Below are positions 44,056 through 64,000 of a stretch of 64,000 nt of DNA, in pieces; the first letter of the stretch is position 1, and every line of letters starts with the position of its first letter. This stretch comes from Dyella sp. AtDHG13. Lineage in GTDB: Bacteria; Pseudomonadota; Gammaproteobacteria; Xanthomonadales; Rhodanobacteraceae. The notes under the pieces were generated by a model that saw only the letters and a list, made by a program, of their open reading frames with translations, did not search any database and was not told where the DNA came from. Location: contig NZ_QICJ01000009.1 in NCBI RefSeq assembly GCF_003201105.1, positions 62,001 through 126,000 on the forward strand, given 5' to 3'. Both the position numbers and the translations under genes were made by a program.

Positions 44056-44238
44056 AGTTTCCCCTGCGCCCCTCATGGGGCATCCCATGCTTCCCTAGCG
44101 CGGCGGCCCGCGACTGGACTCCGCCAGCACTTCCTTTCGGAATCATCGCACAAGATTGCGGGAAAAATGTCGGCCTGATTCGCGAGGCAAACGCGCCGCG
44201 GGCGGGCCGTGACCCCGTCGCTACTGCCGAACGAAGCC

Positions 44239-47064: not shown

Positions 47065-47283
47065 AAAGGCCCCCGCCCCGTGTGTACCCCATGAAGGCCG
47101 ATGAACCGGCCCCTTAAAAACGTGCCCAGCGACACCATATTTGCACAACGAAATCGCAACTAAATACCGCGAGAATCCCGTAGCCATCGCAAATGCGGCC
47201 GGTTTGCCCCGGTCAACGACGGGCTGCGATAATCGACAGACTCAACCGGGGCATTGCCCCATCAAGTACTTGCGGAGATCTCC

Positions 47284-48465
47284 ATGTCGGACGTCAGCGT
47301 TGTCATCGCCGGTGCCAAGCGCACTGCCATTGGCTCCTTCCTCGGCCAGTTCACCGGCGTACCCACCCCCACGCTGGGTGCCACCGCCATTCGCGCCGCC
47401 CTGGAGCAGTCCGGCCTGGCTCCCGCCGATGTCAGCGAAGTCATCATGGGTTGCGTGCTGCCGGCCAACCTCGGCCAGGCCCCCGCCCGCCAGGCCTCGC
47501 TCGGCGCCGGCCTGCCGCCCGCCGCCGGCTGCACCACCGTCAACAAGGTGTGCGGTTCGGGCATGAAGGCCATCATGCTGGGCCATGACCTGATCAAGGC
47601 CGGCTCGGCCGCGGTGGTGGTGGCAGGCGGCATGGAGTCGATGACCAACGCGCCGCACATGGTCAATGCGCGCACGGGAATCCGCTACGGCGACGGCACG
47701 CTGGTCGACCACATGGCGTGGGACGGCCTGACCAACCCGTACGACGGCAAGGCCATGGGCGTGTTCGGCGAGCAGTGCGCCGACAAGTACCACTTCACCC
47801 GCGAGGAGCAGGACAAGTTCTCCACCGAATCGGTCGAGCGCGCCAAGGCCGCGCAGGCATCCGGCGCCTTCGCCGACGAAATCGTTCCCGTCACCGTGGC
47901 CAGCCGCAAGGGCGAGGTCAAGGTGGATACCGACGAGCAGCCGGGCCGCTCGGACGTCAGCAAGATCCCGACGCTGAAGCCGGCCTTCCGCAAGGAGAAC
48001 GGCACCATCACCGCCGCCAGCTCCTCCAGCATTTCCGACGGCGCCGCCGCCGTGGTGCTGCTGTCGGCGGACGACGCCAAGGCCCGTGGCCTTAAGCCCC
48101 TCGCCCGCATCGTTGCCCACGCCACCCATTCGCAGGAACCGGAATGGTTCACCACCGCACCTGTGGGCGCCCTGCACAAGGTGCTGGAAAAGGCCGGCTG
48201 GAAGACCAGCGACGTGGACCTGTTCGAGGTCAACGAAGCCTTCGCCGTGGTCGCCATGGCCGCCATGCGCGAGCTGGACATCCCGCGCGACAAGATCAAC
48301 GTCAACGGCGGCGCCTGCGCCCTGGGCCATCCCATCGGCGCCAGCGGTGCCCGCCTGGTGGTCACGCTGCTCAACGCACTGAAGACCCGTGGCCTCAAGC
48401 GCGGCGTGGCGTCGCTGTGCATCGGCGGCGGCGAAGCCACTGCCGTCGCGGTGGAACTGCTGTAA
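47284..48465 (+). CDS. Acetyl-CoA C-acetyltransferase (thiolase)
   Basis: A 393-residue thiolase with the complete catalytic set: nucleophile C90 (NKVCGSGMKA), H349 (ALGHPIGASGAR) and C379 (SLCIGGGEA). The length and motifs match biosynthetic/degradative acetoacetyl-CoA thiolases. It would cleave acetoacetyl-CoA, an end product of leucine breakdown, or condense acetyl-CoA. GGAGAT seven bases before the ATG at 47284 sets the start. It reads divergently from the autotransporter pair. Confidence 0.93.
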   Translation: MSDVSVVIAGAKRTAIGSFLGQFTGVPTPTLGATAIRAALEQSGLAPADVSEVIMGCVLPANLGQAPARQASLGAGLPPAAGCTTVNKVCGSGMKAIMLGHDLIKAGSAAVVVAGGMESMTNAPHMVNARTGIRYGDGTLVDHMAWDGLTNPYDGKAMGVFGEQCADKYHFTREEQDKFSTESVERAKAAQASGAFADEIVPVTVASRKGEVKVDTDEQPGRSDVSKIPTLKPAFRKENGTITAASSSSISDGAAAVVLLSADDAKARGLKPLARIVAHATHSQEPEWFTTAPVGALHKVLEKAGWKTSDVDLFEVNEAFAVVAMAAMRELDIPRDKINVNGGACALGHPIGASGARLVVTLLNALKTRGLKRGVASLCIGGGEATAVAVELL

Positions 48466-48476
48466 GGTGGCACGAC

Positions 48477-48500
48477 CGGCGGCCGGCCATCCGGCCGCCG
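48477..48500 (+). terminator. Hairpin after thiolase gene
   Basis: CGGCGGCCGG-CCAT-CCGGCCGCCG forms a perfect ten-base GC stem 12 bases past the thiolase stop. No U-run follows, so it may be an RNA-stabilising 3' structure rather than an intrinsic terminator. Confidence 0.45.
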
Positions 48501-48614
48501 ATGAAAGCGGGGTTAACCCGTTTTCGCCGCTTTACATAAATAGGTGGCGCAATTTCCGCGAAAGCGCTATTAATACGCCCGCCAAACGGCATTCCACGGC
48601 AAAGGAGATTCAAC

Positions 48615-48887
48615 ATGAAGTTCACGCGTACCCTTCTCGCCTCTGCGCTCGTCGCGCTGCTGGCGGCTTGCAGCAACGGCGCGCAGGATTCCGCGCAGGA
48701 CGCTCAGAAGTCGGCTGACCAGACTCAGCAGGCTGCTGATCAGGCCCAGAAGGCTGCTGCTGCTCCGGCAGAGCAGGCTCCGGCCGCTGCCCCGGCCTCG
48801 ACCGCTGCCGCTCCGGCCGAACAGCCGGCGCCGACCCCGGCTTCGACCGCTGCTGCTCCGGCTGCTGCCTCGACCGCTGGTCACTAA
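48615..48887 (+). CDS. Small Ala/Gln/Pro-rich lipoprotein
   Basis: A 90-residue predicted lipoprotein. The signal KFTRTLLASALVALLAAC gives lipidated C19. Residues 24-50 are an Ala/Gln/Asp heptad-like stretch (QDSAQDAQKSADQTQQAADQ) that could form a helix, followed by Ala-Pro-Ser-Thr repeats (APAEQAPAAAP, ASTAAAPAEQPAP). The codons of the repeats are nearly identical, a sign of slippage-driven expansion. AAAGGAG is seven bases before the ATG and TATTAAT about 40 bases upstream may be the -10. No family is recognised beyond general resemblance to small entericidin/Lpp-like envelope lipoproteins. Confidence 0.8.
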   Translation: MKFTRTLLASALVALLAACSNGAQDSAQDAQKSADQTQQAADQAQKAAAAPAEQAPAAAPASTAAAPAEQPAPTPASTAAAPAAASTAGH

Positions 48888-48907
48888 GTACACTCGTGTA
48901 CTTCAAG

Positions 48908-48937
48908 AAACCGGCCGCCATTGGCGGCCGGTTTTTT
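48908..48937 (+). terminator. Intrinsic terminator, first unit of tandem array
   Basis: AAACCGGCCGCC-ATT-GGCGGCCGGTTT followed by TTTT. It is a perfect 12-base stem with a three-base loop, 20 bases past the lipoprotein stop, and the strongest and least degenerate member of the array that follows. Confidence 0.9.
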
Positions 48938-49097
48938 TGTGCCTATGAAAAAGCCGGGGCCGCCATCGGTGGCTGGTTTTTTTGTACCTATGAAAAACCG
49001 AGGCCGCCATTGGCGGCTTTTTTTGTACCTATGAAAAGCCGACGGCCATTGAGGCCGTTTTTTTTTGCCGTTTGAAAAGCCAGCGCCCACCATTTTT
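48908..49097 (+). repeat. Tandem array of terminator-like hairpin units
   Basis: Four or five head-to-tail copies of a unit reading roughly CCTATGAAAA-GCC-G-GGCCGCC-ATT-GGCGGC-T7-GTA. The CCTATG anchor recurs at 48942, 48987 and 49028 and a decayed one at about 49068, giving steps of 45, 41 and 40 bases. Stems decay along the array: 12 perfect pairs, then interrupted, six (GCCGCC/GGCGGC), five (CGGCC/GGCCG), and none in the last (GCGCCCACCATTTTTT). All keep the T-run on the plus strand. This reads as local duplication of a terminator. Confidence 0.8.
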
Positions 49098-49203
49098 TCG
49101 CGTCTAGGCCAAGCCCGCCCCATCGCCATGCTGCGACGCCGATTTAGCCCTGCGGCAGGGGCCGCTATCATCCGGGGCTCCCCACGAACGGCAGCCGTAG
49201 CCC

Positions 49204-50811
<1,608 letters not shown>

Positions 50812-50835: not shown

Positions 50836-52692
50836 CTAGCCTAGCGTCGTGGCGGTGCCGATGGGCGCGCCTTCCGTGCGATGCATGTCCAGCACGATGA
50901 TCTCGTTGTGGCCCTTGCGCAGCCACGTGGCCGGGCAATACAGGCGATGCTGGGGACCGATGCGCCAGTAGCGCCCCAGCAGTTGCCCGTTGACCCACAC
51001 GTAGCCCTTGTCCCACGCGCGCATGTCCAGATAGCAGTCGCCGGTTGCTTCCAGCGCGAAGCCGGCGCGGAAGAACAGCCCCGCCCGCGTCGGCGCGCCG
51101 CTGAGCGGCTTGAGGCCCTCCAGCCAGGCCGTTTCCAGCGGCAGGCTGTAGGCGTCCCATCCGCCCAGCGTTTGGCCGTCCAGACGGATGGCGCCGAGGA
51201 TGCCCTTGCGGTCGACCATCGCCTGGCCGTAGCCGATGTGCCCGAAGCTGTCGACCAGGATGTCGAGCGTGGCCTCATCCGATTCCGGCAGCGATAGTGG
51301 CCCCAGCGGTTGCAGCCCTGGCTTTTGCACGCGCGACAGATAACCGACGTAGCGACCACCATGGAACACCGTGGCGTAATCACGCACGTCGCCAACGTCG
51401 AGGCTGCCACTGCCGGTAGCCGCACGGCGATAGAGCACCATGCCGTGATCCTGCGCGAACAGCAGCTCATTGGCCTGCGGCCGCTCGACACGCTTGGGCG
51501 CCGGCAGGTTGTCCCACAGCGATGCCCAGGGTTCTGCCTGCAATGCCGGCAGAGAAATCACCGGCGGCGCCGGCGGCGGCTCAGGCAAGGTGGCATGCAG
51601 GTGCGCCGCGATCATGTCGCGGAAGCGGTGATATTCGGCGGTGGCGCCGCCCTGCTCGTTGATCGGTGCGCCGTAGTCGTAACTGGTGATCACCGGCTCG
51701 AACTGGCTGTAGTCGCCGTTGGCATTGGCGCCCGCGCCAAAACCGAAGTTGGTGCCGCCGTGGACCACGTAGAGATTGAACGAGCGCCCTTGCGCCAGCA
51801 GCGTGCGCAGCGTATCGGCGAACTCGCCGCGCTGGAACGCCGCGTCGCCCCAGTGCGTCAGCCAACCGGGATAACCCTCGCCCATCCATACCGGCGCTTC
51901 GCCGGCAATAAGTTGCGCTGCATTGAAGTCGGTATCGCCATCGAGACCAAGCGCCGCGCCCGGCAGATAGGTCTTTTCCTTCCGTATCTGCCCGAGGCCG
52001 TCGGAAATCGAAAAGGGGCCGTCGATGCCGCGCTCCTGCCACATCGCGCGAAGCTGCTCCAGATAGCCCAGGTCGCTGCCGAACGAGGCGTACTCATTCT
52101 CGACCTGCACCATCAGGATGGGACCGCCGCGCGAGGCCATCAGCGGAGCGATGCGCGGCGCGATGGCGTCGAGATAGCGGCTCACCGCCTGAATGTAGCG
52201 CGCATCGTGGCGGTCGCGCACGCGGATGTCCGGCGTGCGCAGCAGATACGGCGGCAGGCCGCCGAAATCCCACTCGCCGCAGATGTAGGGGCCCGGCCGC
52301 AGATACACCCACATGCCGTTCTGCGCGCAGCACTCGATGAAGCGCACGAAGTCGCGGTTGCCGCTGTGGAAATCGAACACGCCCGGCTGCGGTTCCAGCG
52401 CGTTCCACATCAGGTAGATCGCGATGGTATTCAGGCCCATCGCCTTGGCCATGCGGATGCGATGTTCCCAGTGTTCGGCCGGAATACGGATGGGGTGCAT
52501 CTCGCCGCTGCGGATCTGGAACGGTTGGCCGTCCAGAAGAAAATGTTGGCGCGACAGCGCGAACCGGTGCGGACGTCCATCCGGCTTGGGCTCGACGGCC
52601 GGCGTCGTGGGGACCGCTGCCGCGGACGCCTGCGATCCCCACGCAAGCAACGGCGTCAGTGCGGTGAGGCGAAGGAAATCCCGACGCTGCAT
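50836..52692 (-). CDS. GH35 beta-galactosidase
   Basis: A 618-residue exported glycosidase. The amino end MQRRDFLRLTALTPLLAWGSQASA is a Tat-type signal. The GH35 TIM barrel carries the acid/base E200 (QVENEYASFG) and nucleophile E272 (MGEGYPGWL), with GPYICGEWDFGGLP near 135. A C-terminal jelly-roll region (about 520-610: DMRAWDKGYVWVNGQLLGRYW) completes the family architecture. It hydrolyses terminal beta-galactose. It is the last gene of a minus-strand locus with a GH-D enzyme, a TonB receptor and sugar kinases, and converges on the carboxylase gene with 24 bases between them. Confidence 0.93.
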   Translation of the reverse strand: MQRRDFLRLTALTPLLAWGSQASAAAVPTTPAVEPKPDGRPHRFALSRQHFLLDGQPFQIRSGEMHPIRIPAEHWEHRIRMAKAMGLNTIAIYLMWNALEPQPGVFDFHSGNRDFVRFIECCAQNGMWVYLRPGPYICGEWDFGGLPPYLLRTPDIRVRDRHDARYIQAVSRYLDAIAPRIAPLMASRGGPILMVQVENEYASFGSDLGYLEQLRAMWQERGIDGPFSISDGLGQIRKEKTYLPGAALGLDGDTDFNAAQLIAGEAPVWMGEGYPGWLTHWGDAAFQRGEFADTLRTLLAQGRSFNLYVVHGGTNFGFGAGANANGDYSQFEPVITSYDYGAPINEQGGATAEYHRFRDMIAAHLHATLPEPPPAPPVISLPALQAEPWASLWDNLPAPKRVERPQANELLFAQDHGMVLYRRAATGSGSLDVGDVRDYATVFHGGRYVGYLSRVQKPGLQPLGPLSLPESDEATLDILVDSFGHIGYGQAMVDRKGILGAIRLDGQTLGGWDAYSLPLETAWLEGLKPLSGAPTRAGLFFRAGFALEATGDCYLDMRAWDKGYVWVNGQLLGRYWRIGPQHRLYCPATWLRKGHNEIIVLDMHRTEGAPIGTATTLG

Positions 52693-52763
52693 GCGTCACT
52701 CCGATAGCGGCGATCTTGCCATCCTGCCATGCCTCCCGGCGGAGGCAAGGCAGGATACGGCGA

Positions 52764-54788
52764 TCATTGCGGCGTCAGCTCCAGCGTGAGCACCTGGAAC
52801 GGCGCCAGCGTCACGGTCGAGGGCTGATCCGCATCCAGCGGCATGGCGGGCTTGCCCGCATCCTCCGCCCACGGGCTTTTCGCTACGAAACGGCGGACGG
52901 CGCCGGGCGGAAGTTCCAGCTGGCGCGACAGGTCGATCACCGCCAGCTGCGGCTTCGCGTCGGGATTGCGCAACGTGATGATGGCCTTCTTCGGCGTCCA
53001 GGAGGCCCAACCGTAGACATCCAGACGGCCGGGATCGCCACCGATCCAGTGCGTGTCCCGCAGCACGTCCGCATTGCCGCGGGACCAGCGCGCCGCTTCG
53101 GCCAGCACGTCCCAGTCCTGCGTGGTGAGCAGGTCGGGCGTGATGTACATCTCCTGCAGTTGCGTGCCCGTACCGAAGTACGAGCGCACTTCGTTGGCGA
53201 AATCGTGGCCGGGGTCGGCGTTGAGGCGGCGGTTCTCCTTCGCGTAGATGATGCCGTGGAGCATCAGCGAGTTGAGCGGATACAGCGGGCCCTTCTCCAC
53301 GATGTTGTGGTAGGTCTCGCGGTCGCGGTAGGTGATCCAGCGTTCGCGTTTCGTGCCCACGCCGGCCAGGTCGTCGTCTTCACCGTCGCGCCAGATGGAA
53401 TCGGCGTAGCGCAGCCAGAACGGCGAGGCCATGGTGCCGGTGGTGAGGTTGATATAGAGATCCGGCTTGGCCACGCGCAGGTCGTCGATCAGCTGGATCG
53501 CCGCGTCGAAATCGCTGCTGAAGCGGCTGCCCGGAAACACCTTGTCCGCATTGCCGGTGCCATCGAACTTGAACTGGTTGATGCCGTCGTTCTTCACCAG
53601 ATCCATCACGGCGTCGTGGAAGCGCTGGTAATACTTGGGCCCGGAAAGCGCCAGGCCGCCGTCGATGATCTCGTAGCCGGCAGCTTGCCCGTTCTTCACG
53701 CGCTCCTCCTTGGGCTTGCCGTAGCCGCCCCACGGTGACAGCCACATGCCGGGCGCCGCGCCGTACTTGGCCGCGGCGTCGCGCAGCGGCAGGAAGCCGT
53801 GCGGAAAGTCCTTGCTGAAATGCCAGCTGCCGCTGCGGTCGTCCCAGCCGTCATCGAACAGATAGGAATCGAGCGTGACGCCGCGCTTGACCTTCAGCTC
53901 CTCGCCGAAGGTGTGGATGCGGTCCAGCGCCTGCGCCTCGGTGTACGGCGTGAAGTAACCGATGTCGTACCACGAGTTGTAATGCAGGAAGGTGCGGTAG
54001 GGGTGCGCACGCTCACGTTCCACATAGGCGAGGAAATCGCGGCGCAATTGATTGTCGTGGGTGATGCCGGCCACGGCCGAGTACGTGATCGACTGCCCCT
54101 TGGGCAGCGGCAGGCCGCGGTCGATCCAGAGCTTGACCTGCTTGCGGTAGGTTTCACTGGACGACAGCGGATGTTCGAAACCGAAGTAGTCATGCCCCGC
54201 CACCACTGGCGAACCCGGCACCGTGCCCACCACCTGCGCGTCGGTGACTTGCGTGCGCAGCAGGCTCACCTTGCTGATGTTCTCGTCCTGCTTGAGTGCG
54301 GTGATCGTCACTACGGCGCGCAGATAATCGGAGCCCTCGCGCTGCACCCACTGCCAGTCGATGCGGAAGCGGCCGTCCGCATCGCCGAAGCTGGCCGCCA
54401 CGGCCTCGCCCGGCACGCGCTCGGCCAGGCGCGAGGCCTTGGGATTGGCCTTCAGGTGGACGGCCTTGGGCGATGAAAGCAGCTTGAGCTGCCCCATGCC
54501 CAGCTGGGTGCCGTCCGCCATGCTCAGTTCCACCGGCGCGCTCACCGGCATGTCCTGGTGGTTGGGCAAGTCTTCCAGCACCAGGTTGGATAACGTGCCG
54601 TCGCTGATCTTCCAGCGGGCGACGATGCTGTCGTTGCCGAACTGGTAGCCGTCGCCCTGCTTCGAAAAGACTGCGTCATGCCCGCCCGCCAGCGCGCTCG
54701 ATGCGCTGGCCACGAACATGCACGCCAGCCACGCCTGCCCTGCCTTCTTCGTCCGCCGCCGCATGCGGCGTTCCACTGCTGCTGTCAT
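52764..54788 (-). CDS. GH-D clan glycosidase (alpha-galactosidase-type), secreted
   Basis: A 674-residue exported enzyme. The signal peptide covers about residues 1-34 (WLACMFVASASSALAGG). An N-terminal beta-sandwich (about 40-240) is followed by a TIM barrel with the clan motif LFDDGWDD (D312-D313) and a probable nucleophile D409 in FKFDGTG, as in GH27/GH36. WRDGEDDD further on is a candidate acid/base region, and a small C-terminal sandwich follows. Proteins like this are sometimes named 'enterotoxin' in databases, a label the catalytic motifs do not support. The likely substrate is a terminal alpha-galactoside or alpha-N-acetylgalactosaminide, given the AgaS-type pathway beside it. Confidence 0.82.
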   Translation of the reverse strand: MTAAVERRMRRRTKKAGQAWLACMFVASASSALAGGHDAVFSKQGDGYQFGNDSIVARWKISDGTLSNLVLEDLPNHQDMPVSAPVELSMADGTQLGMGQLKLLSSPKAVHLKANPKASRLAERVPGEAVAASFGDADGRFRIDWQWVQREGSDYLRAVVTITALKQDENISKVSLLRTQVTDAQVVGTVPGSPVVAGHDYFGFEHPLSSSETYRKQVKLWIDRGLPLPKGQSITYSAVAGITHDNQLRRDFLAYVERERAHPYRTFLHYNSWYDIGYFTPYTEAQALDRIHTFGEELKVKRGVTLDSYLFDDGWDDRSGSWHFSKDFPHGFLPLRDAAAKYGAAPGMWLSPWGGYGKPKEERVKNGQAAGYEIIDGGLALSGPKYYQRFHDAVMDLVKNDGINQFKFDGTGNADKVFPGSRFSSDFDAAIQLIDDLRVAKPDLYINLTTGTMASPFWLRYADSIWRDGEDDDLAGVGTKRERWITYRDRETYHNIVEKGPLYPLNSLMLHGIIYAKENRRLNADPGHDFANEVRSYFGTGTQLQEMYITPDLLTTQDWDVLAEAARWSRGNADVLRDTHWIGGDPGRLDVYGWASWTPKKAIITLRNPDAKPQLAVIDLSRQLELPPGAVRRFVAKSPWAEDAGKPAMPLDADQPSTVTLAPFQVLTLELTPQ

Positions 54789-54879
54789 CTTGATACCTCG
54801 GATTCATGCCGGACGAGGATGCCTCATCCAGCCACAAGGCCGCGGCAAGCACCGCGGCCCGCGCTTGGGTCAGGTCCGC

Positions 54880-57800
54880 TCAAAACTTCTGCTGGTAACG
54901 GATATACACGAAACGGCCGATGTCATAGGAGGCGTTGTAGTCGTTGTAGCTGTCCGTGCCGGCATTGAAGCCGCCGCCATAGATGTACGGACCCACCTTG
55001 TTGAACACGTTGTTGACGCCCAGCGAGAAGGTGCCCTTCCACGGGGCGTTCCAGTGCACCTGCACGTCGTTGAAGGTGACCGACGGAAACTGCGTGAGCG
55101 GCGTGACGCCGATGCCCGGCGCGTAGTAGTTCGGCAGGCTGCATTCGAACACCGTGGTGGTGGTCGGCGGCGGATAGGCGCAATAGCCCTTGATCGGCGA
55201 GAAGTAGCGCAACGTCCAGTTGGCGCCGAAGTCGTGCCAGTCCCATGCCAGGGTGAAGTTGCCGCGCAGTCGCCATACCGCGCCGTCCAGGTTGCCGTAC
55301 GCGGTGCCCGCGGTGTACTGCACTGGCGCGCCCACCGTCGGCTGCACGTTGTTGGTCGCGATATACGTGCCCTGCACGCCGAGCTTGAACTTGCCGAAGC
55401 TGAATTCGGGCAAGGCGTAGTTGAAGCCGAAATCCCAGCCGCGCTCCTTCAACCAGCCGGCGTTCACTTCCAGGTTCATCAGGTTGATGATCTGGCCGGC
55501 CAGCGGACCATTGCCGCCCTGGCGCTGGAATTGCGAACAGGCCGAGGTGATGCCGAACTGGTAGCAGTCGGCCAGCACCTGGTTGTTGCTGATGCCGGTG
55601 ATGAGGTTGCGGATGTTGTAGCTCCACCAGTCCACCGTAGCGTTGAAACCCGGCAGCCACGAGGGGCTGTAGACGATGCCGATGTCGCCGTTGTAACCCG
55701 TTTCCGGCTTGAGGTTGGGGTTGCCGCCGTTGTAGCTGTTGGTGACGCCCGCGGCGCCGGGGCCGGTGACCGGCGTACCGGTGGCGTCGGTCTGGCGGAA
55801 GTTGGCCGGCACGCCCGCGATGCCGCCGAAGCCGGAGGCGCAACGCGCCGCCACCACGGGGCTGTTGCCGTACTCGCTCGGTCCGTACACGGCATCGCAC
55901 GGGTCGGTGAAGCCGCCGGCGAGGTACAGGCCCTGGTACAGGTCGTTGATGGTCGGCGCGCGGAAGTTAGTGCTGTAGCTGGCGCGCACCATCAGATCGT
56001 CGATGGGCTTCCACGCCAGCTTGAACGAGCTGTTCCGCGTGCTGCCGAAGTTGCTGTATTTGGACCAGCGCGTGGCGAGATCCAGCGACAGGCTCTGCGC
56101 GCCGGGCAGGTCCTTGAGCAGCGGCACGTAGGCTTCGACATAGCCCTCGTTGAGGCTGAAGCGGCCGGAGTTGGGCTGCACCGAGTAGTCGCTGGAGTAG
56201 CCCGCCGTGGCGAACGGATCGGTCGCGTCGAAGCCCGATTCGCTGCGGTGCTGCACGCCCGCCGCCACGGTGAGGTTGCCCGCCGGCAGCGTCAGCACGT
56301 CGCCGCTGATGTCGGCCACGGCGGCCTTTTCGTCATAACCCGCGCGCTCGACATTGTTGATCGCAATGTAGTTGAGCATCTGCGGAGTGATCGTGCCCAG
56401 CGGATTGAGCGGAACGCAGCCGGCGATGACGTTGCCCGGCGTGCCGCAATGGACCACGCCGTCGCTGCCCATGAACGACGGACCCAGCGCCTGCGTCGCG
56501 GCGATCAGGTTGTACTGGCCGGGGCGGATGTCCACGTCGCGGATCTTGCTGTCGTAGTAGTAGGCGTCCCAGGTGAACTGATGCTCGGCGATGCTGAAGT
56601 CGCCGTCGAAGCCGACGCTGTAGCGGTAGTTCTTCGACGTGTTGTCGTTGGAATACAGCTTGTTCGGGAACAGCCGCTCGAACGACACGTCCTGCGGCGT
56701 CTGCCCGGGCGCGTTGTACGGGTTGTAATAGCTCTGCGAGGAAAGCAGCAGCGGAAACTGCGGCAGGTCCGGCGGGTTGCTCGACTGCCCGGTGTAGAGA
56801 TAGCTCGGGCCACCGGCGCCGCCATTCCAGCTCTGGTTGTAGCCCAGGTCGACGTGCGCGGTGATGTGGTCGGTGAGCTTGAAGTGATCGGACAGGTATA
56901 GGTTCTTCGTGCGGTTCGGGCTGAGCGTGGTGCTGAGGCCGCTGTAGTTGTATTTCCACGAACCCGCATTGGCCAGGCTAGTGATGTTGCCGTTGGGCGC
57001 ATAGACGCGCGGCGTACGGTACGACCAGTCGGCGATGTTCGACGGGTTGCCGCCGGGGTTCAGGGTCAGCACGTGGCTGCCGGTCGCTGGGTCGGCATTG
57101 GGTGCATTGAGGATCAGGCCGCTGTCGGGCGGCAGCGAACTGAGCCCGAAGTACGGGTAGTGATTGGTCTGCGGATACGCCGACCACGGACGGTCGCTGC
57201 CCCACACCGAGCCCTGGTACTGGTCCGACGCGCTGACGATGATCGAATTGCGCTCGCCGCTATGCCCGGCGGTGACGCTGAACTGCGCCTGCGCACCATC
57301 GTTGTGCGGCATGTACTGGCCCAGGTAGCTGTCGATCTGCACGCCATTGAAGTTCTTGAGCGTGACGATGTTGATCACGCCGGCGATGGCATCGGAACCG
57401 TAGATCGCGGAAGCGCCGCTGCCGAGGATGTCGATGTGGTCGACGATGGCGGCGGGAATCACGCTGATGTCGGTATAGCCGCCGTGCACCGCGCCGATGC
57501 GCTGGCCGTCGACCAGCACCAGCGTGCGTTGCGCGCCCAGGCCGCGCAGATCGATGAAGGTGCCGCCCTGGTTCACGCCCAGCGAGCCGGCGTCGGCGCG
57601 GCTGAGGTCAGGCGTGGCCGCCGCAGGGATGTTCTGCAGCAACTGGCCGACCGTGGCGAAGCCCTGGCGCTGGATGTCGTCGCGCGTGATGGTGATGGTC
57701 GGCAGCGCCGTTTCCAGGTCCACGCCGCGGATATTGGTGCCGGTGACGTTCACCGCCTGCATCTGCTTGGCGTTCTTCTCCGAAGGCGCCGGGCTGGCCG

Positions 57801-57996
57801 GCTGGCCGGCATCCTGCGTGACCGGCGGCGTGGATGATGGCGATGTCTGTGACGATGCCTGCGCCAGCGCGGACCCCGCGAATGCCATGGCGCCCGCGAC
57901 GCCGGCCACGCGCATCGCCATCGCCAGCGCATTGATGGCCGGCATGCCGCACGGGCGGCAACCGTTTCCGGAACGACCTCTCTTGTGCTGCTTCAC
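54880..57996 (-). CDS. TonB-dependent receptor of the galactoside/galactosamine locus
   Basis: A 1038-residue outer-membrane transporter, read from a GTG start with GGGGAGAG seven bases upstream. A later ATG (residue 18) is the alternative. The signal peptide ends near AGSALA|QA. The TonB box is QMQAVNVTGTNIRG, the plug contains FIDLRGLGAQRTLVLVDGQRIG and ILGSGASAIYGSDAIAGVINIV, and the barrel ends in IRYQQKF. No STN domain is present. It lies between the kinases upstream and the glycosidases downstream on the same strand, so it probably imports the oligosaccharide they degrade. Confidence 0.92.
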   Translation of the reverse strand: MKQHKRGRSGNGCRPCGMPAINALAMAMRVAGVAGAMAFAGSALAQASSQTSPSSTPPVTQDAGQPASPAPSEKNAKQMQAVNVTGTNIRGVDLETALPTITITRDDIQRQGFATVGQLLQNIPAAATPDLSRADAGSLGVNQGGTFIDLRGLGAQRTLVLVDGQRIGAVHGGYTDISVIPAAIVDHIDILGSGASAIYGSDAIAGVINIVTLKNFNGVQIDSYLGQYMPHNDGAQAQFSVTAGHSGERNSIIVSASDQYQGSVWGSDRPWSAYPQTNHYPYFGLSSLPPDSGLILNAPNADPATGSHVLTLNPGGNPSNIADWSYRTPRVYAPNGNITSLANAGSWKYNYSGLSTTLSPNRTKNLYLSDHFKLTDHITAHVDLGYNQSWNGGAGGPSYLYTGQSSNPPDLPQFPLLLSSQSYYNPYNAPGQTPQDVSFERLFPNKLYSNDNTSKNYRYSVGFDGDFSIAEHQFTWDAYYYDSKIRDVDIRPGQYNLIAATQALGPSFMGSDGVVHCGTPGNVIAGCVPLNPLGTITPQMLNYIAINNVERAGYDEKAAVADISGDVLTLPAGNLTVAAGVQHRSESGFDATDPFATAGYSSDYSVQPNSGRFSLNEGYVEAYVPLLKDLPGAQSLSLDLATRWSKYSNFGSTRNSSFKLAWKPIDDLMVRASYSTNFRAPTINDLYQGLYLAGGFTDPCDAVYGPSEYGNSPVVAARCASGFGGIAGVPANFRQTDATGTPVTGPGAAGVTNSYNGGNPNLKPETGYNGDIGIVYSPSWLPGFNATVDWWSYNIRNLITGISNNQVLADCYQFGITSACSQFQRQGGNGPLAGQIINLMNLEVNAGWLKERGWDFGFNYALPEFSFGKFKLGVQGTYIATNNVQPTVGAPVQYTAGTAYGNLDGAVWRLRGNFTLAWDWHDFGANWTLRYFSPIKGYCAYPPPTTTTVFECSLPNYYAPGIGVTPLTQFPSVTFNDVQVHWNAPWKGTFSLGVNNVFNKVGPYIYGGGFNAGTDSYNDYNASYDIGRFVYIRYQQKF

Positions 57997-58161
57997 GTTC
58001 TCTCTCCCCGCGTTCGAAACCGACGCACTGCGTGAACCGCTCGAACTCCCCGTCCGCACAGTCGCCAATGGATGCCCATGAAGCCCCCGCCCCATGGATC
58101 GGTGTGAACAACCACGCTCCCTTCGCACGGGCCGCGCCAGGGCGCGGCTCGCGTGATGCCT

Positions 58162-59100
58162 TCATGCCGGCGTCGCGATGCTCTCCACGCGCACGTCGGC
58201 GAGCAGCGCATCCACCACGCGCCGCTCCACGAAACCGGTTTCATCGTTCATCGCATTGGCCGCGCCACAGGCCACCGCCAGGCGCAGCGACTCGCCGAAG
58301 GCCAGGCCACGCCGGTGCGCCACGGCCAGGCCGGCGAGAAAGCAATCGCCCGAGCCCACTGCGTTCATGCTCCGCCTTGGCGGTATCGATGCGTGCCACA
58401 CCCGTTCGCCATCGAGCCCCAAAGCACCCTGTTCGCCCAGCGTGACGACCGGCCGCACAACGCCGCGCGCGTACAGATCGCGCAACAGCGCTTCGGCTTG
58501 CGGTAACGAATCCACCGCCCGACCGGTCAGTTGCTCCGCTTCGTCGCGGTTGGGCTTGATGACGCAAGGACACGCATCCACCACCTGCCGCAACGCATCG
58601 CCGCTGGCATCGACCAGGCAGGCCAGCCCCACGCTGCTGGCCTGACGCACGATGCGCGCATACGCATCGCTTTCAAAACCGCGCGGCAGGCTGCCGGTGA
58701 GCACCAGCATGTCGCTGTTGTCGAGCGCACGCTCCAGCGTGCGGAGCAGTTGATCGCGCGTGGCGGCGCCGAGCAGTGGGCCGGGGTCGAGCACCTCGGT
58801 CATGCGGCCGTCGCGTTCGCGCAAGGCCAGGCATTGGCGCAGGCTGTCATTGATCTCCACGCCGTGGAACAGCACGCCACGCTCGCTCATGCGTCGCGCG
58901 ATGACATTGCGGTGCGTTGCGTCGATCAGGCCAACGAGTTGCACCGGCTCGCCCAGCGCGGCGATGGTCTGCGCCACGTGCACGCCCTTGCCGCCGGGAT
59001 AGCTCTGCACCGAGCTGGCGCGCTGCACGACGCCAGGTTGCAGCGCATCGAGCGTCACCAACCGGTCGATCGCCGTGTTGAAGCCGCCCACGGTGATCAC
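58162..59100 (-). CDS. 1-phosphofructokinase-family hexose kinase (LacC/FruK-like), probable tagatose-6-phosphate kinase
   Basis: A 312-residue PfkB-family kinase of the 1-PFK subgroup: N-terminal GGFNTAIDRLV, the sugar-phosphate-binding PGGKGVHVAQTIAALG (residues 36-51) and the anion-hole/catalytic MNAVGSGDCFLAGLA near 250. This subgroup phosphorylates fructose-1-phosphate or tagatose-6-phosphate. Paired with an AgaS-type isomerase and a class I aldolase, tagatose-6-phosphate is the better substrate guess. It starts with GTG overlapping the stop of the upstream kinase (GTGA), which shows translational coupling. Confidence 0.88.
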   Translation of the reverse strand: MITVGGFNTAIDRLVTLDALQPGVVQRASSVQSYPGGKGVHVAQTIAALGEPVQLVGLIDATHRNVIARRMSERGVLFHGVEINDSLRQCLALRERDGRMTEVLDPGPLLGAATRDQLLRTLERALDNSDMLVLTGSLPRGFESDAYARIVRQASSVGLACLVDASGDALRQVVDACPCVIKPNRDEAEQLTGRAVDSLPQAEALLRDLYARGVVRPVVTLGEQGALGLDGERVWHASIPPRRSMNAVGSGDCFLAGLAVAHRRGLAFGESLRLAVACGAANAMNDETGFVERRVVDALLADVRVESIATPA

Positions 59101-60023
59101 GCCGCCGCCTCCAGCAGCGCGCGTACGTCCGCCTCACTGCCCTGGCAGGCGGTGCCGCCGATGCCCCGCGTGGAAAGCGAACCGCAGGCGCTGCCCCAGC
59201 GCAGGCAATCGCGCAGCGGCATGCCGCGCCGCCATGCGTGCAGAAAGCCGGCGTCGAAGGAATCGCCGGCGCCCGTGCTGTCGAGCACGTCCACGGCGTG
59301 GGCCGCCACGGCAAGCGGCGTTCCGTCGTCCTGCAATGCAATGCAGCCGTCGCCGCCGAGCTTGACCACGCTCAGCGTGTGTCCGTTGCGCAAGGCATGC
59401 AGCGCTGCATATGGCGTGGATTCGCCGCTGATCGCGCAAGCCTCGCGCTCGTTCGGCAGGAACACGTCCACCAGCGGCAGCAGCGCCAGCAGTTCCCTGC
59501 CCCAGCGCTGATGCGGATCGAAGCCAGGATCGAGCGACACGGTAAGCCCTGCGCGACGCGCGCGCTCGAACAGTTCGCGCAGCCCCGGGCGCAGCAGGTC
59601 CTGCAGGTAGTACGACGACACATGCAGATGGCCGCAGCCGGCCAACCGCTCGTCGGTGATCATGTCCTGACGCAAGGCACCGATGGCGCCGGCGCAGGTC
59701 ACCAGCGCGCGATCCTGCCGCGACGACAAGGCCACGGTGATGCCGGTCTGCAGCGAGGCATCGCGCCGCACGCCGGATACATCGATGCGCGCCTCGCGCA
59801 TCGCATCGACGCAGTAGTCGCCCCAGCCGTCGATGCCGGTGACACCCACGAAGGCGACGGGATGGCTCAGGCGCGCCAGGCCCATCGCGCAGATCATCGA
59901 CGAGCTGCCGGGCCCCTGGCGAAAGCCGGAGGCGAGCACCTCGCCGCCGAACTCCGGCAGGCGCTCGCAACCGGTGAGCACCAGGTCGACGTTGATCTCG
60001 CCGGCGATCAGCAGCGGTTTCAC
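59097..60023 (-). CDS. PfkB/ribokinase-family sugar kinase
   Basis: A 308-residue ribokinase-like kinase. The amino end KPLLIAGEINVDLVL, the ligand-binding QGPGSSSMICAMGLARL and the catalytic DSTGAGDSFDAGFLHAW (Asp near 265) define the family. It differs from the neighbouring LacC-like kinase and may phosphorylate the free sugar entering the pathway (galactosamine, N-acetylgalactosamine or another hexose). In known GalNAc loci a separate kinase makes the 6-phosphate for AgaS. The GTG start overlaps the AgaS-like stop by four bases, and its own stop overlaps the next kinase. Specificity is unknown. Confidence 0.87.
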   Translation of the reverse strand: MKPLLIAGEINVDLVLTGCERLPEFGGEVLASGFRQGPGSSSMICAMGLARLSHPVAFVGVTGIDGWGDYCVDAMREARIDVSGVRRDASLQTGITVALSSRQDRALVTCAGAIGALRQDMITDERLAGCGHLHVSSYYLQDLLRPGLRELFERARRAGLTVSLDPGFDPHQRWGRELLALLPLVDVFLPNEREACAISGESTPYAALHALRNGHTLSVVKLGGDGCIALQDDGTPLAVAAHAVDVLDSTGAGDSFDAGFLHAWRRGMPLRDCLRWGSACGSLSTRGIGGTACQGSEADVRALLEAAA

Positions 60024-61228
60024 GCGCCGCCCTCCGCGCCGTGGATGGCGAACGCCTGCACCACGCGCGTGAGCACGCCCTGTGATGGCGCATCCGGTTG
60101 CTGGCCCAGGGACAGGCAACGGAACAGGGCAAGCAGCTGGCCGGCGACCACATGCACCATCGCCTGCTGCGCTTCGTCCAGTTGCGAAAGCCCGGGCAGT
60201 TCGACGGCGACATCGCCGGGCCCGATCACGTCCGCCGGAATGGCCTCGCCCACCACGATGCGCACACCGCCCAGTTTCTTGCGCGCGATTTCGCGCAGCA
60301 GATCCAGTTCGTAGGCGCGCACGGCCGGCGCGCCGGAGAGGAAGGCGATGACCGGGCATGGGCGATCCAGCCAGGACATCGGCCCGTGGCGCAGGCCCAG
60401 ATAGGTTTCGCACATGGCGCTGACCGCGCCGCCGGACATCTCCAGCATCTTCAGCGCCGCTTCGCGCGCGGCGCCGAACGCCGCGCCGCTGCCGAGATAC
60501 AGCGCGGCGTCGAAATCGGCGGCGCCCTCGCGCGCCAAGGCGTCGCCATATCGTTCGAACAACATGGTGGCGATATTCGCGGCGAGATCCGCCACGCCGG
60601 CGTCCACCTGCGTTGCATGGGCATGCAGCAGGCCGCTGCCGCCCAGCACGAGATTGGTGAAGCTGCTGGTCATCACCAGGCTGCGGTCGTTGGTGCGCGG
60701 CGACAGCTGCAGCACGCGCACGCGCGGCTCGCTGCGGTAGCGCGTGGCCAGTTGGCCCTGCACGTTGCAGGTCACCACCAGATGCCGGTAGTCCGGCTCC
60801 GCTTCCAGCACCTGGTCCACCACGCTGGCGCTTTCCGGGCTGTCGCCCGAGCGCGCGATCGACACCAGCAGGCCGCGCCCCCGGGGCAGCGTGCCGCGGC
60901 GATGCGTGAGCAAGGTGCCCGCGGCAATCGCCTGGGCGGGGATGCCCAGCCCTTCCTGCAGCACCGGCGCCAGGCACTCGCCCACGTAGACGGAGCTACC
61001 CGAGCCGGTCAGCGCGATGTGCCGCGGCTCGGCCGCGAGCAGCCCACCCAGCATCGCCCGCGTCGCGGGGTCGGCGAGCCGCGAGGCCGTGTCACGCCAC
61101 GTATCGGGCTGCTGAAGGATCTCGCGCAGGGTGTCGGCGTAGCCCAGCCGTGCCTGCTCGGCGGGCGAGGCGGCTTTCAGCGAGTCCAGCGTCGGAACAG
61201 TCACGGAGGGTTTGACAGGCATGGGCAT
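60020..61228 (-). CDS. agaS: SIS-domain sugar isomerase/deaminase, AgaS-like
   Basis: A 402-residue double-SIS protein. The first SIS domain has TGSGSSVYVGECLAP (residues 74-88) and ARSGDSPESASVVDQ. TSSFTNLVLGGS follows, and the second domain has YLGSGAAFGAAREAALKMLEMSGG and ETYLGLRHGPMSW. This matches AgaS, the galactosamine-6-phosphate deaminase/isomerase giving tagatose-6-phosphate. It heads a six-gene minus-strand operon (two kinases, TonB receptor, GH-D, GH35). ATG 61228 and ATG 61222 are both possible starts. The divergent aldolase promoter carries GAAAC repeats 20-40 bases away. Confidence 0.88.
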   Translation of the reverse strand: MPMPVKPSVTVPTLDSLKAASPAEQARLGYADTLREILQQPDTWRDTASRLADPATRAMLGGLLAAEPRHIALTGSGSSVYVGECLAPVLQEGLGIPAQAIAAGTLLTHRRGTLPRGRGLLVSIARSGDSPESASVVDQVLEAEPDYRHLVVTCNVQGQLATRYRSEPRVRVLQLSPRTNDRSLVMTSSFTNLVLGGSGLLHAHATQVDAGVADLAANIATMLFERYGDALAREGAADFDAALYLGSGAAFGAAREAALKMLEMSGGAVSAMCETYLGLRHGPMSWLDRPCPVIAFLSGAPAVRAYELDLLREIARKKLGGVRIVVGEAIPADVIGPGDVAVELPGLSQLDEAQQAMVHVVAGQLLALFRCLSLGQQPDAPSQGVLTRVVQAFAIHGAEGGA

Positions 61229-61233
61229 CTGAT

Positions 61234-61265
61234 GAAATATGATGTGAAACGAAACAACACGAAAC
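61234..61265. promoter_or_regulatory. GAAAC repeats: candidate DeoR/AgaR-type operator
   Basis: In the 58-base gap between the divergent AgaS-like and aldolase genes, GAAAC occurs at 61246, 61251 and 61261, with a GAAAT at 61234. Read on the minus strand this is GTTTCGTGTTGTTTCGTTTC. Repeated TTTC/GAAA half-sites are the hallmark of DeoR-family operators such as AgaR and GlpR sites. The DeoR gene at 63547 is the probable regulator. Both divergent operons would be controlled together. Confidence 0.68.
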
Positions 61266-61286
61266 CTCAATCACAAGGTATTCGAA

Positions 61287-62204
61287 ATGAAACGCAAGTT
61301 GCAAGCGCCGTCGTTCTCCTCCACCAAGCTGGCCTCGCTGGCGCTTTCGCACGGCAAGCGCACGCGCCTGTGGCGCCTGCTGTACGGCAGCGGCCCGCGC
61401 AACGGCAGCCTGCTGGTGCTGCCGCTGGACCAGGGGCTGGAGCACGGCCCCACCGATTTCTTTCCCCACCCGCCGGCCGTCGATCCGGGCTATCAGTTCG
61501 AGCTCGCCGAGGCTGGCGGCTTTTCCGCCATCGCGCTGGGCATTGGCCTGGCCGAGAAGTACATGACGGAGTACTGCGGCCGCGTGCCGCTGATCCTCAA
61601 GCTCAACGGCAAGACCAACATCCCCAGCGACGCGGAGGCGACCTCGCCGCTGTTCGCCTCGGTGGAGGACGCCGTGCGCCTGGGCGCCGACGCGGTGGGC
61701 TACACCATGTACGTCGGCTCGCCGCGCCAGCACGACGAGTTCCGCCAGTTCGAGAAGGTGCGTCAGGACTGCGAGCGCTTCGGCATGCCGCTGGTGCTGT
61801 GGTCGTACCCGCGCGGCAGCGCGGTCAACGCCAAGGGCGGCACCAACACGCTCTATGCGCAGGACTACGCCGCGCGCGTGGCGCTGGAGCTGGGCGCGGA
61901 CATCGTGAAGCTGCACGAGCCCAACGACAGCGTGGCCAACGTGCCCGCGCCCTACGACAAGCTGCAGGAAGACGCCGCCGCGCGCTGCGCGCGCGTGGTG
62001 CGTTCGGCCGGCCGCACCATGGTGCTGTTCTCCGGCGGCGAGAAGAACGACGATGACGCGGCCGTGCTGCGCAAGGTGGAGTTCTACATGCAGAGCGGCG
62101 CCAGCGGCGTGATGTTCGGCCGCAACATGTGGTTGCGCCCGTTCGACCAGGCGGTGTCGCTCACCCGCCAGGTGCACGACATCATGGCGCGCTATCCGGG
62201 CTGA
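61287..62204 (+). CDS. Class I fructose-/tagatose-bisphosphate aldolase (DhnA/FbaB family)
   Basis: A 305-residue DhnA-type class I aldolase. It has LPLDQGLEHGPTDFF near residue 45, KLNGKTNIPSD near 100, the probable Schiff-base strand ALELGADIVKLHEP (Lys near 211) and a phosphate-binding LFSGGEKNDD/SGASGVMFGRNMW end. It would split tagatose-1,6-bisphosphate or fructose-1,6-bisphosphate to dihydroxyacetone phosphate and glyceraldehyde-3-phosphate, the last step of the route encoded divergently. It is separated by only 58 bases from the AgaS-like gene. Substrate choice is inferred from context. Confidence 0.88.
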   Translation: MKRKLQAPSFSSTKLASLALSHGKRTRLWRLLYGSGPRNGSLLVLPLDQGLEHGPTDFFPHPPAVDPGYQFELAEAGGFSAIALGIGLAEKYMTEYCGRVPLILKLNGKTNIPSDAEATSPLFASVEDAVRLGADAVGYTMYVGSPRQHDEFRQFEKVRQDCERFGMPLVLWSYPRGSAVNAKGGTNTLYAQDYAARVALELGADIVKLHEPNDSVANVPAPYDKLQEDAAARCARVVRSAGRTMVLFSGGEKNDDDAAVLRKVEFYMQSGASGVMFGRNMWLRPFDQAVSLTRQVHDIMARYPG

Positions 62205-62218
62205 TCGGGACACACACG

Positions 62219-63475
62219 ATGCGTGACGCGAACCCTCGCGCCCGGCGGCGATTCGACCCGGCTCACCGCCACTTGCTCACCGCGACCCGCACGGGCTGCG
62301 GCTGCTGCGCGCCGCCGATGCTGGGCGGCGGCAGCGGCAAGAACCCGCTGCAGACCGCGGCGAAACCGCAAGGCGAGGAGCTGCGCCTCACCGACTTCCA
62401 GCCGCGCAGCATGCTGCACGTGCCGGTGACGCGGGTGGAAAAGCCCGCGTTTCCGGTGATCGACGTGCACACGCACCTGAGCTGGATGAGCGAAACGCGC
62501 AACGGCGTGTCGCTGGGCGAGGCGATGACCTACTTCGCCGATCCCGCCGAGCTGGTGGCGCTGATGGACCGCAAGGGCATCCGCGCCATGGTCAACCTCA
62601 CCGGCGGCACCGGCAAAGGGCTGGAGGAAACCATCGCGCGTTTCGATGCGGCGGCGCCCGGCCGGTTCCGCACGATGACGGAACCCTCGTTCGCGCTGTT
62701 TACCCAAACGGACTACCCACGCCTGCAGGCCGAGGCCATCGAGCATGCGCACCGCATCGGCGCGGCAGGGCTGAAGCTGCTGAAGACGCTGGGACTCTAC
62801 CTGCGCGAGGGCATCGACCAGGGCGAACTGGTCGGCGTGGACGATGCGCGCTTCGATCCCATGTGGGAAACCTGCGCATCGCTCAAGATGCCGGTGTTCA
62901 TCCACACCTCCGATCCGGAAGCGTTCTTCCTTCCCGGCGACAGCGCCAACGAACGCTACGAGGAACTGGCCAGGCATCCGGACTGGTCGTTCTACGGCCC
63001 GGAATACCCCAGCCATCGCGACCTGCTGGCCGCGCGCGACCGCGTGATCGCGCGCCACCCGAACACCACCTTCGTGCTGATGCACGTGGGCAACCAGGCC
63101 GAAGACCTGGCCGCCATCGCCGACTGCATGGACCGCCACCCCAACGTGCAGGTGGACATCAGCGCGCGCATCAGCGAACTCGGCCGCCAGCCGCGCATGG
63201 CGCGGCGTTTCTTCGAGCGCTACCAGGACCGCATCCTGTTCGGCACCGACGCCGTGCCGCCGCCCTACGGCAACGACGTGCCGCAGCAGTTGCTGGGCGA
63301 CGAGCTCTACGAGATCTACTACCGCTTTCTGGAGACAGAAGACGAGTACTTCGATTACGCTCCTTCCGCCGTACCGCCGCAGGGGCGTTGGTCCATCTAC
63401 GGCGTGGGCCTGCCGCGGGAGATCCTGCGCAAGCTTTATCACGACAACGCGGCGCGACTGCTGGGCATGCCCTGA
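62219..63475 (+). CDS. Amidohydrolase-2 family metal-dependent hydrolase
   Basis: A 418-residue TIM-barrel hydrolase (PF04909 type). The metal motif is DVHTHLSW (H84, H86). Later ligands are probably FIHTSD (near 245), LMHVG (near 305) and the Asp of LFGTDAVPP (near 342). Residues 1-60 are unusual: RARRRF is followed by a Cys-rich GCGCCAPPMLGGG without a hydrophobic core. It may be an atypical Tat/lipoprotein leader, or the true start may lie downstream, although no good alternative ATG with a ribosome-binding site is seen. It lies 15 bases after the aldolase gene. Its role in the sugar locus is unknown; it is not a NagA/AgaA-type deacetylase by motif. Confidence 0.8.
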   Translation: MRDANPRARRRFDPAHRHLLTATRTGCGCCAPPMLGGGSGKNPLQTAAKPQGEELRLTDFQPRSMLHVPVTRVEKPAFPVIDVHTHLSWMSETRNGVSLGEAMTYFADPAELVALMDRKGIRAMVNLTGGTGKGLEETIARFDAAAPGRFRTMTEPSFALFTQTDYPRLQAEAIEHAHRIGAAGLKLLKTLGLYLREGIDQGELVGVDDARFDPMWETCASLKMPVFIHTSDPEAFFLPGDSANERYEELARHPDWSFYGPEYPSHRDLLAARDRVIARHPNTTFVLMHVGNQAEDLAAIADCMDRHPNVQVDISARISELGRQPRMARRFFERYQDRILFGTDAVPPPYGNDVPQQLLGDELYEIYYRFLETEDEYFDYAPSAVPPQGRWSIYGVGLPREILRKLYHDNAARLLGMP

Positions 63476-63546
63476 TTCACGCCGGTGGCAGGATGCCTAG
63501 TCCGCGCCACGCCGCCGGACCGGGCCAGCCCACCAGGAAAGGAACC

Positions 63547-64000
63547 ATGACGACACGACGCAAGGCCGCCCCGCCCCCGCCGAAACTGCTGGTGGAAGAA
63601 CGCCGGCGCCGCATCGTGGAGCGGGTGAACGAAAAGGGCCGCGCCACCGTCGACGAACTGGTGGCCCTGTTCGACATCTCGGCGGTGACCATCCGCGCCG
63701 ACCTGGAAGCGCTCGACCGCGCCGGCGCCATCAGCCGCTCGCACGGCGGCGCGCTGCCGGCCACCACGACGCAGCTGGACACGCCGCTCAACATCAAGGA
63801 AACCCGCCACCACGCGCAGAAGCTGCGCATCGGCCAGGCGGCGGCGCAGCTGATCGAGGACGGCGATACGGTCATACTCGACTCCGGCTCCACCACGGTG
63901 GAAATCGCGCGGCAGATCCGCCAGCGCAAGTGGACGTCGCTCACGGTGATCACCAACGCGCTGAACATCGCGATGGAGCTGTCGGCCACGCAGGGCGTGC
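63547..64000 (+). CDS. DeoR-family transcriptional regulator (partial, runs off the window end)
   Basis: The first 151 residues of a DeoR regulator with no stop codon before the window end. The helix-turn-helix (LLVEERRRRIVERVNEKGRATVDELVALFDISAVTIRADLEALDRAGAISRSHGGAL, about residues 14-70) is complete. The effector-binding sugar-phosphate domain begins (LIEDGDTVILDSGSTTVEIARQI). GGAAAGGAACC precedes the ATG. Divergent operons with GAAAC repeats lie just upstream, so it likely represses them in the absence of a sugar phosphate, in the manner of AgaR. Confidence 0.93.
   Translation, partial: MTTRRKAAPPPPKLLVEERRRRIVERVNEKGRATVDELVALFDISAVTIRADLEALDRAGAISRSHGGALPATTTQLDTPLNIKETRHHAQKLRIGQAAAQLIEDGDTVILDSGSTTVEIARQIRQRKWTSLTVITNALNIAMELSATQGV

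Follow-up and report, generated by a model that had tools for sequence, protein, structure and literature searches.

The aga/gam system of Escherichia coli, as described in PMC3668189, combines import through a phosphotransferase system (PTS) with the deacetylase AgaA and with AgaS as deaminase/isomerase, and its regulator belongs to the DeoR family (PMC4694137). According to PMC2996990, the aga loci of Shewanella (Omp-Aga/AgaP/AgaK/AgaA-II/AgaS) contain an outer-membrane receptor, a kinase and AgaS and no PTS. The polysaccharide utilisation locus BT4240-50 of Bacteroides thetaiotaomicron encodes a GH109 enzyme with measured alpha-N-acetylgalactosaminidase activity (BT4243), a beta-galactosidase and a kinase for N-acetylgalactosamine (GalNAc) (PMC11992087). 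In PMC12118421, deacetylation is assigned to AgaA and NagA and, where no PTS is involved, phosphorylation to AgaK, and agaA has been taken as a marker of GalNAc use (PMC5583593). Here, we describe a locus at the 3' end of a 64,000-nucleotide stretch of Dyella sp. AtDHG13 (contig NZ_QICJ01000009.1; hereafter the window; genome surveyed, 5.1 Mb in 32 contigs), which encodes an AgaS-like protein, two kinases (PfkB1 and PfkB2), an aldolase (ALD), an amidohydrolase (AMH2), a TonB-dependent receptor, a DeoR-family regulator and two glycosidases, GHx and GH35 (Table 1).

The aldolase of the locus is of class I, unlike the class II KbaY/KbaZ of the E. coli aga system, and AgaK of Shewanella is a ROK-type kinase. 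The locus shares an AgaS-like protein and a DeoR-family regulator with the E. coli system as described, and differs from it in PTS import and AgaA (PMC3668189; PMC4694137); where the Shewanella loci have AgaK and AgaA-II, it has PfkB2 and an Amidohydro_2 protein, with a DhnA-type class I aldolase and no GatZ/AgaZ (PMC2996990). PTS genes were not recognised among the open reading frames (ORFs) between 46000 and 64000 or within 17.9 kb beyond the window, the remaining genome not having been searched for them. The initial annotation had presented the lack of a PTS and the TonB receptor as novelties; both had already been reported for the Shewanella aga loci. The Bacteroides locus resembles the route proposed here in its GH109 alpha-N-acetylgalactosaminidase, its beta-galactosidase and its GalNAc kinase, but this kinase is of the APH family and acts at O1, and the text of PMC11992087 makes no mention of AgaS. 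In the open literature, we recognised no description of GalNAc loci with an amino-sugar kinase of the PfkB family or a deacetylase of the Amidohydro_2 family, which does not establish priority.

Our best model overall, to which we assign a probability of roughly 0.6, is a GalNAc-glycan utilisation locus with a route through PfkB2, AMH2, AgaS, PfkB1 and ALD, and that the pathway concerns GalNAc or galactosamine at all is very likely. The activities, substrates, locations and step order proposed in it are deduced from gene families and from their conservation, linkage and exchange among genomes. The TonB receptor would bring pieces of glycan through the outer membrane, GHx (at an alpha-GalNAc end) and GH35 (on beta-galactose) would release sugars outside the inner membrane, and an unlinked permease would import the amino sugar. 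AMH2 would remove the acetyl group and PfkB2 would phosphorylate the amino sugar at C6, in either order; a slight preference goes to deacetylation as the earlier step, since some relatives of AMH2 appear to be exported and an exported deacetylase must precede phosphorylation. AgaS would then convert galactosamine-6-phosphate into tagatose-6-phosphate and ammonia, PfkB1 would form tagatose-1,6-bisphosphate, ALD would cleave this to triose phosphates, and the DeoR protein would repress the locus via CGAAAC-type repeats.

Exchange of enzyme sets among relatives

AgaS was found in 26 of 81 genomes (the window's genome and 80 relatives), and its surroundings were examined in the other 25. AMH2 adjoins AgaS in 22 of the 26 genomes (the window and 21 of the 25 relatives' loci), and all 21 AMH2-bearing loci of relatives contain PfkB2, with ROK and NagA in none. 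The four AgaS loci without AMH2 (L049, L057, L058 and L059) all contain ROK, NagA and GatZ, and none has PfkB2. At the genome level, all 22 genomes with AMH2 have exactly one nagA above the cut-off, away from agaS, and the four genomes without AMH2 have two nagA genes each, one of them adjoining agaS. The exchange of AMH2 for agaS-linked nagA across the 26 genomes gives a Fisher p of 7e-5, ignoring phylogeny. Where found in relatives, ALD (83-97% identity to the window protein), AMH2 (71-96%) and GHx (65-87%) are well preserved, and the TonB receptor is fast-changing (38-59%, or 38-64% once loci of further relatives are included).

The pattern was followed further with an AMH2 alignment scanned against one genome per species (84,980 species), which gave 413 matches; the best 80 of the 413 were used, and gene presence was scored by tblastn (E 1e-12) plus a simple gene caller, some loci being short contigs. 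Fifty-seven of these loci (L060-L115 and L121) were assigned by record title to a Lysobacterales-type group, including three metagenome-assembled genomes assigned only to Proteobacteria, and they overlap the 22 AMH2 genomes above, so that the two are not independent samples. Within the group, AgaS occurs in 57 loci, PfkB2 and DeoR in 56 each, ALD in 52, PfkB1 in 50, GHx in 43, GH35 in 7, GatZ in 3 and GH109 in 2; AMH2 thus belongs to the core of the locus. A linked ROK kinase was found in 0 of 57, as was a linked NagA/AgaA-type deacetylase, which bears out the earlier statement that no AgaA-type deacetylase is present at the locus.

Genome G018, of the same genus, carries AgaS (59% identical to that of the window), GatZ, NagA, ROK and a major facilitator superfamily (MFS) permease in one locus. 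One flank holds DeoR and an HscC-like chaperone (90% and 83% identical to the neighbours of the window locus), and the other a TonB-type receptor (by reading), GH20, GHx (66%) and GH35 (75%). Because this classical set keeps GHx and GH35, the same sugar is apparently served by both enzyme sets, and the simplest reading is that the NagA, ROK and GatZ genes of G018 mark the shared sugar as GalNAc. In three intermediate loci (L066, L077 and L097), GatZ accompanies AMH2, PfkB2 and AgaS; neither PfkB1 nor ALD was found there (L097 is cut off at GatZ). From these, the pathway enzymes appear to swap as two modules, with PfkB2 and AMH2 exchanged for ROK and NagA, and PfkB1 and ALD exchanged for GatZ.

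AMH2 as a candidate for the deacetylation step

The initial annotation had left the amidohydrolase as an extra gene of unknown role. AMH2 most likely fills the deacetylase gap of the locus, and we consider it fairly probable that it is a GalNAc or GalNAc-6-phosphate deacetylase of a new type. AMH2 matches PF04909 (Amidohydro_2) with 114.5 bits (cut-off 26.4) and has no NCBIfam match at E 0.001, hence no match to the NagA (CE9-type) profile. A profile search of solved structures returned nothing at E 0.001, and a single-sequence search gave weak hits to Amidohydrolase 2/2,3-dihydroxybenzoate decarboxylase chains (E about 0.008). An HxH motif, two further His residues and an Asp are invariant across 15 divergent AMH2s (46-75% identity to the window AMH2), a pattern that we take to be typical of metal amidohydrolases. 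In Flavonifractor, FpGalNAcDeAc, reportedly of carbohydrate esterase (CE) family CE18, is said to deacetylate GalNAc before FpGalNase, a GH36 enzyme, cleaves the galactosamine, the substrate there being the blood-group A glycan. The sole characterised CE18 enzyme is, according to PMC12017989, a GalNAc deacetylase. The same source describes OngB, a GlcNAc1A deacetylase, in which an amidohydrolase-superfamily barrel likewise serves as a carbohydrate de-N-acetylase outside five CE families; OngB is, however, D-aminoacylase-like and acts on an oxidised amino sugar, whereas AMH2 belongs to the PF04909 branch.

In Acidobacteriota, the phylum of L136, AgaS (E 1e-50) was found in 13 of 149 sampled genomes. 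AMH2 above 300 bits, a limit picked after the gap between 309 and 267 bits had been seen, occurs in 8 of these 13 versus 3 of the other 136 (Fisher 4e-8, ignoring phylogeny), and it lies close to AgaS in four of the eight (G081, G187, G197 and G245). The 12 AgaS regions other than that of G081 contain PfkB2 in nine cases, GatZ in six and AMH2 in four (one only 32% identical), with ROK and NagA in 0 of 12, and in none of the 13 genomes does nagA lie close to agaS. The tightly packed operon of L162 comprises GH109, DeoR, PfkB1, AMH2, a sodium-solute symporter, a class II bisphosphate aldolase and PfkB2, with a divergent AgaS; with the two kinases, AgaS and the aldolase accounted for, no gene but AMH2 is left there to carry out the deacetylation. 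L159 and L161 combine AgaS, PfkB2, AMH2, GatZ and a sugar MFS transporter with GH109 or with GHx and GH35, and L171 contains GHx, GH109, GH20, GatZ and AMH2 without AgaS. Of the 23 AMH2 loci that fall outside the Lysobacterales-type group, four have a linked NagB-type enzyme, also an amino-sugar-phosphate deaminase. On a contig that likewise encodes a NagB-type deaminase, an AgaS remnant (L127:3412-3700) lies about 6 kb from AMH2, as if one deaminase had replaced the other.

A different assignment keeps the pathway and lets the housekeeping NagA deacetylate GalNAc-6-phosphate, with AMH2 otherwise engaged, for example in trimming a lactone or a different acyl group from that glycan. We regard this as unlikely: AMH2 and a linked NagA never occur together among the relatives, their exchange takes place inside one genus, L162 leaves no other gene for the step, and the acidobacterial genome G141 has AgaS and an unlinked AMH2 with no NagA match at E 1e-20, although it may be incomplete. 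Several observations nevertheless weigh in favour of NagA and against a deacetylase role of AMH2. To our knowledge, the PF04909 enzymes characterised so far are lactonases, decarboxylases and hydratases, with no amidases among them. The sole nagA above the cut-off in the Dyella genome lies on another contig in a separate nag cluster, as one nagA is kept in each AMH2 genome; because E. coli NagA is able to replace AgaA (PMC3668189), the pathway does not strictly require a deacetylase gene at the locus. Five of the 13 acidobacterial AgaS genomes have no AMH2 over 300 bits, AMH2 and AgaS are unlinked in four of the eight that have both, and the NagA/AMH2 exchange is not seen in this phylum, 8 of the 12 AgaS regions having neither. 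Outside the Lysobacterales-type group, 15 of the 23 AMH2 loci have no AgaS in the available stretch and many of their AMH2s carry twin-arginine translocation (TAT)-like signals (by reading); in L133, AMH2 lies between dipeptidase-like and CBM9-like proteins (by reading), with the same neighbours in L137. The AMH2 family may also be functionally mixed. Against the model as a whole count the match of the AgaS-like protein to TIGR02815 (248 bits), which is below the family cut-off of 529, and the inner-membrane sugar transporter, none being seen in or beside the locus.

The cellular location of AMH2 may also have shifted between Lysobacterales-type and other loci. A CxCCAPP-like motif near the N-terminus (window ~62300-62330) is conserved in the majority of Lysobacterales-type AMH2s. 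Reading of the remaining AMH2 loci did not reveal it, and in many of these a TAT-like signal takes its place. By eye, an RR-type TAT-like signal opens most acidobacterial AMH2s of the roughly 60%-identical class, and none was seen in the AMH2 of L159, L161, L162, L169 and L171 or in the Lysobacterales-type class. The possibility that the Dyella AMH2 is a lipoprotein or secreted was set aside, as its N-terminus has no hydrophobic stretch and no signal peptide is evident. Acidobacterial AMH2 genes (L119, L129, L131, L136 and L139) often lie near DUF5107 and TPR proteins, and many loci contain 760-aa BNR/sortilin-repeat proteins.

If the assignments are correct, functions would be suggested for two families that are blank or generic in profile libraries (GHx and AMH2), together with a substrate for a PfkB kinase, and a carbohydrate de-N-acetylase family would be added outside CE4, 9, 11, 14 and 18, as listed in PMC12017989. 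Rules that use agaA as a marker, as in PMC5583593, would need correcting because they would miss these bacteria. Soil bacteria would then appear to have a GalNAc economy of their own, separate from that of gut mucin degraders.

Glycosidases, kinases and aldolase

GHx had been labelled a GH-D glycosidase. Its motifs are GH-D-like, but it has no Pfam match, thus no GH27/GH31/GH36 profile match, and no NCBIfam match; its profile gave a single weak match among PDB entries, to the alpha-galactosidase 6lcj (E=0.015, 48 residues over the DDGW stretch). A single-sequence search returned only antifreeze proteins (E 0.1-0.3), and comparison with the GH27-like protein of L047 gave no useful match. In some Acidobacteriota GHx adjoins AgaS or AMH2, and GH109 (PF21252, 272 and 276 bits) takes the GHx position directly downstream of PfkB1 in Lysobacter L114 and Tahibacter L121. 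From this context, we lean towards GHx being an uncatalogued alpha-GalNAc-releasing glycosidase; the joint reading as a whole, in which it represents a new glycoside hydrolase family releasing alpha-GalNAc or galactosamine, perhaps from fungal galactosaminogalactan, is tentative and rather doubtful. In several loci (6 of 57 by tblastn), the gene after GHx encodes a protein of 497 aa that apparently carries a signal (L044:14908-16401 and relatives) and resembles GH79 by eye; no Pfam match was obtained for the L042 homologue.

The galactosamine/tagatose-6-phosphate reading of the initial annotation is well supported by such links, namely GH109, GH20-type enzymes (L136 and L171) and GH123-type enzymes (L136, weak at 28 bits, and L139), and by the classical set beside GHx and GH35 in G018. 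A galactose or galactoside route without an amino sugar, in which AgaS would isomerise galactose-6-phosphate ahead of the tagatose-6-phosphate pathway, would explain GH35, the GH27 linked in one AMH2 locus and the LacC-like PfkB1, but it is very improbable given these glycosidases, the NagB genes of four loci and the exchange with the NagA and ROK set, and it would leave AMH2 and PfkB2 superfluous.

Within the favoured GalNAc route, the closest PDB relative of the AgaS-like protein is 3c3j (E=5e-50). PfkB1 scores 267 bits against the hexose-kinase subfamily TIGR03168, above the cut-off, and 150 bits against the LacC model, under the cut-off of 410. For ALD, an alignment with the class I fructose-bisphosphate aldolase of Thermoproteus (1ojx) was obtained at E=9e-50, and we propose PfkB1 as a tagatose-6-phosphate kinase and ALD as a tagatose-bisphosphate aldolase, for which both families are suitable. 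PfkB2 is likely an amino-sugar kinase, judging from its place in the exchanged set; its NCBIfam matches (ribokinase-, IolC- and tagatose-kinase-like) are all under cut-off, and its best solved relatives, named ribokinase or sugar kinase, do not settle the substrate. A fructosamine or Amadori-type pathway, with PfkB2 as fructosamine kinase and the SIS protein as deglycase, would agree with the pairing of SIS and PfkB genes, said to be of the FrlB/FrlD type, and with a weak match of PfkB2 to the fructoselysine 6-kinase model (61 bits, cut-off 247). It is even less credible than the galactose route, as the AgaS family ranks first among the four NCBIfam models matched by the SIS protein, none of which is an FrlB model, and the glycosidases, PfkB1 and the bisphosphate aldolase would be superfluous.

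Layout, regulation and transport

The gene list given earlier was reproduced from ORFs and profiles, with GH35, GHx, the TonB receptor, PfkB1, PfkB2 and the AgaS-like gene on the minus strand and the aldolase, amidohydrolase and DeoR genes divergent on the plus strand (Table 1). The claim of one minus-strand operon agrees with the 4-bp overlaps of AgaS/PfkB2 and PfkB2/PfkB1 in the ORF coordinates; a single operon is not proven, because about 165 nt separate PfkB1 from the start of the TonB receptor gene.

Table 1. Features of the proposed GalNAc locus in window coordinates
Feature	Position	Strand	Basis
GH35 beta-galactosidase-type glycosidase; variable locus member	50836..52692	-	PF01301, 305 bits
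GHx, GH-D-like motifs, 674 aa; proposed alpha-GalNAc(GalN)-releasing enzyme	52764..54788	-	no Pfam/NCBIfam match
TonB-dependent receptor	54880..~57996	-	PF07715 + PF00593; start by reading, longest ORF from 58128
PfkB1, 1-PFK/LacC-like hexose-phosphate kinase; proposed tagatose-6-phosphate kinase	58162..59100	-	TIGR03168
PfkB2, ribokinase-like; candidate 6-kinase for galactosamine/GalNAc, replacing ROK AgaK	59097..60023	-	PF00294, 155 bits
AgaS-like SIS protein; galactosamine-6-phosphate deaminase/isomerase type	60020..61228 (longest ORF to 61270)	-	TIGR02815, PDB 3c3j
Divergent control region with CGAAAC repeats, 58 bp	61229..61286	.	motif count in homologous regions
ALD, class I aldolase (DhnA type); candidate aldolase for tagatose-1,6-bisphosphate	61287..62204	+	PF01791
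AMH2, Amidohydro_2 metal hydrolase; proposed GalNAc/GalNAc-6-phosphate deacetylase	62219..63475	+	PF04909
DeoR-family regulator, AgaR-like by context	~63544..64000, continuing to about 64353	+	PF08220 + PF00455 on in-window part

The motif CGAAA[G/C], chosen after the regions had been viewed, occurs on either strand at least once in 50 of 52 homologous 100-bp regions before ALD, compared with 10% of random 100-bp stretches. AgaR sites are reportedly of the CTTTC type, as said to have been described by Leyn et al. in 2012, and the CGAAAC repeats fit a putative site of this kind.

The initial annotation had outlined a complete path from an outer-membrane glycan to triose phosphates, which goes too far for want of a linked inner-membrane transporter. 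It had proposed reading past 64000 for permease or deacetylase genes; no sugar permease or sugar deacetylase was recognised by reading among the larger ORFs of the next 17.9 kb. The best match of the G018-locus permease in the Dyella genome is 72% identical and lies in the nag cluster, apart from the locus; for the L161 sugar MFS transporter, only matches of 29-33% were obtained in this genome, and that candidate was dropped.

The first gene after DeoR past the window encodes an Hsp70/HscC-like chaperone (by reading). On the other side, the locus adjoins genes for a thiolase and an acyl-CoA carboxyltransferase (window 47254-50811), homologues of which lie near the locus in some relatives, such as L051. 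Two adjacent minus-strand ORFs of about 980 aa each are located at window 41149-44088 and 44239-47187, the second of which resembles an autotransporter subtilase (by reading).

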